Source: Trujillonella endophytica
GTDB taxonomy: Bacteria; Actinomycetota; Actinomycetes; Mycobacteriales; Geodermatophilaceae
Direction: 5' to 3'
Assembly: GCF_900110555.1 (NCBI RefSeq)
Contig: NZ_FOEE01000001.1
Location: 186,001 to 250,000 of the forward strand
Length of the DNA stretch: 64,000 nucleotides
Numbering within the stretch: position 1 is the first letter of the stretch; every line of letters starts with the position of its first letter. The notes beneath the pieces are model-generated. The model was not told the origin of the DNA and made no database searches. It saw nothing but the letters and a program-made list of their open reading frames with translations. Made by a program: the position numbers and the translations under genes. Below are positions 1,144 to 1,278 of this stretch, piece by piece.

Positions 1144-1278
1144 GGAGGGGAGTATCCCTGCGCGGCAGTGTCGTCAACACGAGGTCCCATGGCCTCCGGC
1201 GCTGCCGGTCGCTCCGACGAGGAGCGGCGGGAGAGACCTCCGGTACCGACACCTGCATGTCGACCGGAGGAGACCCCT
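1144..1278 (+). promoter_or_regulatory. yybP-ykoY family Mn2+ riboswitch with Shine-Dalgarno-sequestering platform, upstream of terC
   Basis: The leader contains GGGGAGTA (1147-1154), then GTCGTCAACACGAGG (1170-1184), CCTCCGGC (1193-1200) and GAGACCTCC (1233-1241). These are the conserved blocks I recall for yybP-ykoY RNAs such as the L. lactis aptamer. Helices can be drawn: GGAGG 1144-1148 with CCTCC 1237-1241 (P1); GGCAG 1164-1168 with CTGCC 1202-1206; GAGG 1181-1184 with CCTC 1193-1196; GCTCC 1211-1215 with GGAGC 1221-1225. The 3' P1 strand can pair instead with the terC ribosome site: CCTCCGGT (1237-1244) with ACCGGAGG (1263-1270), extended by CGACA/TGTCG. This suggests Mn2+-bound P1 frees the SD, as described for E. 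coli alx. Confidence 0.85.

Follow-up and report, generated by a model that had tools for sequence, protein, structure and literature searches.

Does the leader upstream of terC in Trujillonella endophytica belong to a known riboswitch class, and does its control extend to the ter genes behind terC? The window analysed here, a stretch of 64,000 nucleotides from this genome, begins with the 3′ end of uvrB (1-570) and yjbR (672-1013), both recognized by Pfam, followed by the leader and terC (1279-2394, + strand, GTG start). Behind terC lie genes encoding TerD (start at 2504), a DUF475/TerC-like protein (3180), AIM24 (6690), TerD again (7271 and 8277), TelA (8962) and a TIM-barrel lyase (12457). 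An earlier note on this DNA had read the leader as a yybP-ykoY-class Mn2+ riboswitch that controls terC and through which Mn2+ sensing opens the ter cluster. From the evidence below, we consider it very probable that the leader is a Mn2+ riboswitch of this class, similar to that of E. coli alx in lacking stem P2, which switches terC translation on in response to Mn2+; we propose control for terC alone.

Fold and class of the terC leader

Read from the sequence, the + strand carries GGAGGGGAGTA (1144-1154), GTCGTCAACACGAGG (1170-1184), CCTCCGGC (1193-1200) and GAGACCTCC (1233-1241) in this order, and GGAGG at 1144-1148 is complementary to CCTCC at 1237-1241. These four blocks, pointed out earlier together with compatible helices, are present at 1144-1241 and belong to a compact fold of about 1142-1243. 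The predicted Mn2+ riboswitch aptamer, measured from P1.1 to P1.1, occupies 1144-1241 (+); the range 1144-1278 given previously extends beyond this aptamer through the Shine-Dalgarno (SD) hairpin to the start codon. Helix P1.1 is formed by GGAGG (1144-1148, +) and its partner at 1237-1241, and appears as GAAGG/CCUUC in two aligned relatives. It is followed by the 5′ strand of L1 (GGAGUA, 1149-1154, +), with GAGA at 1233-1236 as the 3′ strand, and by P1.2, in which UCCC (1155-1158, +) pairs with GGGA (1229-1232) and which occurs among the leaders mainly as UCCC/GGGA, UUCC/GGAA or CCCC/GGGG. The P3 arm (1164-1206, +) consists of P3.1 (1164-1173/1197-1206), L3 (UCAACAC, 1174-1180) and P3.2 (1181-1186/1191-1196), corresponding to covariation helices 3 and 4. 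The P4 hairpin (1208-1228, +; pairs 1208-1215/1221-1228) is seen both by folding and as covariation helix 5, of which the six inner pairs were counted. Upstream of the aptamer, an inverted repeat (GAGACC 1090-1095/GGTCTC 1134-1139) is also present in the leader locus of Blastococcus endophyticus, and its GGTCTC arm could alternatively pair with the aptamer's own GAGACC at 1233-1238.

The region 1125-1290 folded with a z score of -3.9 and, used as a blastn query, matched 74 out of 97 related genomes at E<=0.01. From the fetched loci we obtained 80 leader rows, after merging those from loci showing one place twice; removal of the chance match L086 left 79 distinct leaders, and 78 of these were aligned (alignment A1) after exclusion of L072, which had been cut wrongly at an inner GAGACC. 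L081 yielded no leader row and stands outside every count. GGAGTA and GAGACC occur in 79 of 79 leaders, both having been part of the motif by which the leaders were cut out. Across the 78 homologues, which were collected by similarity to the window, the 31 pairs of P1.1, P1.2, P3.1, P3.2 and P4 were formed in 94.7% of cells, compared with 81.8 +/- 0.4% after shuffling and at most 53.5% for slid versions of the structure. The covariation score was 0.407 versus 0.165 +/- 0.006, and none of 500 shuffles matched the observed pairing or covariation score. Changes on both sides were found in 21 of the 31 pairs, and RNAalifold returned a nearly identical fold of 29 pairs from the same alignment. Together, these data confirm that a structured, aptamer-like leader precedes terC.

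The check proposed in the earlier note, a match to RF00080 above threshold, returned nothing: the Rfam model had no match in the window at its gathering score and none at E<=10 within 1000-1350. On two E. coli stretches, RF00080 likewise failed to list alx at E<=0.01 and scored mntP at 41.6 bits, below its cut-off of 45, so that the check was uninformative and the miss is weak evidence against the class. The structure line of RF00080 shows no P1 pairs, and the model yielded three sub-threshold matches (L001, L002 and L004) when run on 20 of the 86 loci. Sub-threshold matches of other Rfam families near the leader (che1, Atu_Ti1, livK, mir-3070 and wcaG) were dismissed as chance.

Two covariance models of our own placed the leader within the class. 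R1, built from A1, scored the window leader at 109.7 bits, the window being part of its training set, and detected E. coli alx with 42.5 bits (E 6e-8) as the sole match in the two E. coli stretches (L087 and L088), in which mntP was not found. The training set of R2 consisted of 25 leaders located by R1 ahead of unrelated GDT1 genes; R2 is independent in its sequences, though not in their gathering, because R1, with the window in its training set, chose and aligned them. R2 scored the window leader at 68.6 bits (E 2.7e-15), L001, one of the RF00080 matches, at 37.4 bits, alx at 37.0 bits and mntP at 31.8 bits, with the next-best match in 97 kb reaching 16.2 bits. The window leader hence shares one covariance model with the proven class members alx and mntP, and it carries the features of the class, that is, L1 with GGGGAGUA and the GAGACC strand, closed by P1.1. 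With R1 finding alx, R2 finding all three leaders and the helices covarying, the earlier assignment to the yybP-ykoY class held.

Among its closest known relatives is the leader of alx, which is found by both models, has a TerC-family target, contains GGGGAGUA, UCGUCAU.ACG and GUGAGACCUU and, like the window, aligns without P2; for this reason we did not treat P2 as class-defining, although neither this stem nor a four-way junction is present in the fold and alignment of the window leader. The alx leader differs in its longer P4 and in the sequence behind P1.1, whereas the window has UCCC/GGGA as P1.2 and a ter cluster behind its terC. The mntP leader shares the L1, L3 and GAGACC blocks, but has extra bases at the P2 position, is missed by R1 and precedes an unrelated exporter. 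The Lactococcus lactis and Xanthomonas oryzae aptamers, with crystal structures described in PMC6754395, have two docked legs, L1 and L3, a Mn2+-contacting adenosine in UCA/ACA, P1.1 as the switch helix and the GAGACC strand, which occurs in the X. oryzae construct; their likeness to the window is one of sequence, and they form a four-way junction in contrast to its three-way one. According to the same source, the L3 adenosine that contacts Mn2+ is A41 in L. lactis and A48 in X. oryzae; judged by position, its counterpart in the window would be the UCA adenosine at 1176 (+), which is invariant in 78 of 78 aligned leaders. Finally, Corynebacterium glutamicum cg2157, an actinobacterial terC, has a transcribed yybP-ykoY leader (PMC3890552), which we liken to the window by its description only and which, unlike ours, was detected by Rfam (49.13 bits). 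The class as a whole is listed among motifs present in more than 75% of taxonomic groups (PMC3766115).

Distribution and gene company

At E<=0.1, R1 matched 80 of the 97 relatives; in a sample of 296 genomes from across the phylum, it matched 62 at E<=0.001. RF00080 was above its cut-off in none of 59 relatives and in a single one of the 296 phylum genomes; at E<=0.001 it matched ten of the latter, none of them among the 62 R1 genomes. All these whole-genome counts are lower bounds, since the scans pre-filter: over the source genome, R2 reported a copy ahead of gdt1 but missed that of the window, and R1 left out the copy ahead of gdt1, even though both score well in direct searches. With 62 versus 1 of 296 genomes, annotation by RF00080 alone would hide nearly all such switches.

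The genes behind the leaders form a narrow set. Among 60 R1 loci outside the training set (L089-L148), a selection from the places listed, one (L092) has no open reading frame; the remaining 59 matches precede genes for TerC (26), GDT1 (25), Na_Ca_ex (4), a P-type ATPase (1) and others (3). Hence, 56 of 59 belong to TerC or to divalent-cation transporter families. The exceptions are a sigma factor (L098), a gene of no family (L130) and PorA (L148, a weak 29.5-bit match). Complementarily, a DNA pattern taken from the 5′ part of the leader occurred in at least 119 stretches of named genomes, 80 of which were given as loci and hold 82 matches. Among the matches listed, 76 of 82 lie within 500 nt 5′ of TerC. 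The genera carrying the pattern include Blastococcus, Modestobacter, Micromonospora, Nonomuraea, Saccharopolyspora, Mycolicibacterium, Nocardioides, Amycolatopsis and Streptomyces. Of the other six listed, three run off the stretch and three have no TerC, one of which (L210, from a Desulfuromonas metagenome-assembled genome) is missing the rest of the aptamer. A plasmid search returned TerC relatives, the best match, in Rhodococcus rhodochrous, beginning inside the leader.

The second copy in the source genome (G000; C12:27626-27730, - strand; L277) scored 82.3 bits with R2 and lies directly 5′ of gdt1, so that the presumed Mn2+ gene set of this organism would comprise at least two genes. In seven loci (L040, L049, L052, L053, L057, L062 and L064), two leaders occur on the same strand, each ahead of its own TerC match, which for the second leader of L052 follows only at some distance; L030 and L039 each carry two leaders on opposite strands, pointing away from each other. 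The sigma factor is of the ECF type (Sigma70_r2 and r4) and lies directly behind a 72.7-bit R1 aptamer (L098:1852-1952, - strand, seen again in L278; G003, C1:4696251-4696351), where an alternative hairpin, GAGACCU/AGGUCUC, covers the SD. A 90% identical sigma coding stretch elsewhere in G003 matches without the leader part, and the arrangement was seen in this one genome only.

Relation to the ter cluster

The leader is frequently found in genomes without TerD. TerD was detected in 35 of the 97 relatives at E<=1e-10 and the leader in 80, leaving at least 45 of the 80 leader genomes without TerD. Among the matches listed for named genomes, TerD lay downstream in one of 76 leader-terC units, that of B. 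endophyticus (L163), a count for which at least 2.5 kb of downstream sequence was available at 64 of the 82 listed pattern matches. In the sister genome G002, the order uvrB-yjbR-leader-terC is kept with a different gene next and no TerD match; by eye, this next gene may encode a MarR-like regulator.

These counts bear on whether the same riboswitch also governs the ter cluster through a shared mRNA, by polarity or translational coupling, with Mn2+ as the entry signal for TerD and TelA. Such control, which we judge unlikely, would fit the position of terD, which starts 110 nt downstream of terC on the same strand, and the finding that at least ten genomes of several genera have TerD some 1.5 kb downstream of the leader (G000, G005, G015, G020, G022, G060, G061, G069, G072 and G078). 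Against it stand the leader genomes without TerD, the TerD-less unit of G002 and the gap itself. terD has its own SD, and the terC-terD gap (2395-2503, +) contains a promoter-like motif, GATACTGT, which is located about 90 nt before terD both in the window and in B. endophyticus (L163, 2554-2790), at equal distance from the start despite unequal gap lengths; comparison of the two gaps thus counts against simple riboswitch control of terD. We regard GATACTGT as a likely separate promoter of terD. A consensus promoter scan of 1000-2600 found none, and a consensus terminator scan of the same interval gave two terminator-like sites, both within terC. By eye, TACNGT precedes a TerD gene in L023, L034 and L045, and an inverted repeat in the gap, a further point against shared control, is found in other lineages (L031, L036, L056, L058 and L061). 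The window and B. endophyticus also have an inverted repeat near GATACTGT in common, possibly an operator.

The simplest reading would be that the riboswitch-terC unit is the older part and that the ter genes later joined it downstream, keeping their own promoter. The earlier view of the ter cluster as being entered through Mn2+ sensing found no support in the comparison of genomes and gaps, which speaks against Mn2+ opening the whole cluster.

Proposed mechanism and implications

As for control of terC by the leader, the earlier choice of terC as the target was supported; the gene matches PF03741 (E 2e-48), and its SD GGAGG (1266-1270, +) lies 8 nt 5′ of the GTG at 1279. The SD is contained in ACCGGAGG (1263-1270), which is complementary to CCTCCGGT (1237-1244). 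At the RNA level, the expression platform (1237-1270, +) pairs CCUCCGGU (1237-1244) with ACCGGAGG and includes an inner stem (1247-1251/1258-1262); it is mutually exclusive with P1.1. When metal is left out of the calculation, the SD is hidden in the best fold of 1141-1287 (-77.5 kcal/mol, compared with -70.4 for the P1.1 form, a gap of 7 kcal/mol), and the SD hairpin alone (1233-1272) reaches -20.6 kcal/mol with a z score of -4.7. This competing hairpin is conserved: four or more of the five P1.1 bases are paired with the SD motif in the best local fold of 78 of the 79 leaders, the exception being the minus-strand leader of L039. Each of the first seven pairs is found in between 57 and 61 of the 61 distinct arms, partly by construction, as the SD was located by motif. 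When arms were shuffled, the observed pairing was reached in 1 of 2,000 cases and the count of both-sided changes in 28 of 2,000, a modest covariation explained by a hairpin core that hardly varies. Clear single cases are CCUCCAGUUGG/CCGACUGGAGG in L076 and CCUUCGU/ACGGAGG, together with P1.1 GAAGG, in L030. Competition between P1.1 and the SD, as modelled here, would give the translational ON switch that had been anticipated.

We infer Mn2+ as the ligand, the direction of the switch and control at the level of translation from these folds and from the relatives of the leader. Mn2+ stabilizes and closes P1.1 in the yybP-ykoY class (PMC6754395); in E. coli, mntP is under translational Mn2+ control and Mn2+ activates alx reporters (PMC9603457). 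Since the SD-hidden fold wins without metal and Mn2+ stabilizes P1.1, terC should be off at low and on at high Mn2+. With no P2, stems P1.2, P3 and P4 would join in a three-way junction. At low Mn2+, the 3′ strand of P1.1 (CCUCC, 1237-1241) would pair with ACCGGAGG and silence terC translation; at high Mn2+, L1 and L3 would dock around the metal and hold P1.1 (GGAGG/CCUCC) together, which would free the ribosome site, so that TerC is made. In GDT1 leaders (for example, L112, L105 and L277), GUCG(G)AGG, the complement of the P1.1 3′ strand CCUUCGAC.., sits well upstream of the SD, and their expression platform therefore differs from that of the terC leaders.

That the leader acts on transcription, through Rho or an intrinsic terminator, and not by masking the SD is quite improbable. 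Translational arrest could add Rho-dependent loss of transcript. Some class members are transcriptional and the X. oryzae switch is described as such (PMC6754395), unlike our reading of the window; however, a consensus scan found no terminator in 1000-1317, and in 78 of the 79 leaders the competing strand extends to the SD. Still less probable is a riboswitch of the same fold that responds to a different cation or condition, such as Ca2+ or alkaline pH. Proteins of the TerC, GDT1 and Na/Ca-exchanger families may not be limited to a single cation, and the base after GGAGUA as well as part of L3 deviate from the usual consensus. E. coli alx responds to alkaline pH besides Mn2+ (PMC9603457). Yet the L3 UCA adenosine is invariant, and a single model, R2, recovers the window leader along with both Mn2+ riboswitches of E. 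coli. Finally, GC-rich sequence folds readily and no Rfam match was obtained, but a chance fold is refuted by the covariation, the R2 match and the independent pattern matches preceding TerC in 76 of the 82 cases listed.

The predicted Mn2+ switch ahead of terC is thus a new yybP-ykoY member that the standard database model overlooked, in a P2-less form shared with alx. A leader of this class ahead of an actinobacterial terC is already in print for C. glutamicum (PMC3890552), and given the limited literature covered, we do not claim that actinobacterial switches of the window's type are unreported. The most useful outcome is the extent of the RF00080 oversight in this phylum. These sequence comparisons suggest that, in this actinobacterial family, TerC and GDT1 genes are as a rule under RNA control by Mn2+, and that such control is also common outside the family. 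More tentatively, and with somewhat less than even confidence, we propose that a compact, P2-less branch of Mn2+ riboswitches, nearly invisible to RF00080, is the usual sensor before TerC and GDT1 in the window's family and widespread in the phylum, and that several lineages now carry it in front of a ter cluster and one genome before an ECF sigma factor. If true, the sigma factor case would put a whole sigma regulon under Mn2+. For the ter locus, terC, and not yet terD or telA, is tied to Mn2+, which favors TerC as a manganese-handling rather than a tellurite-specific protein.
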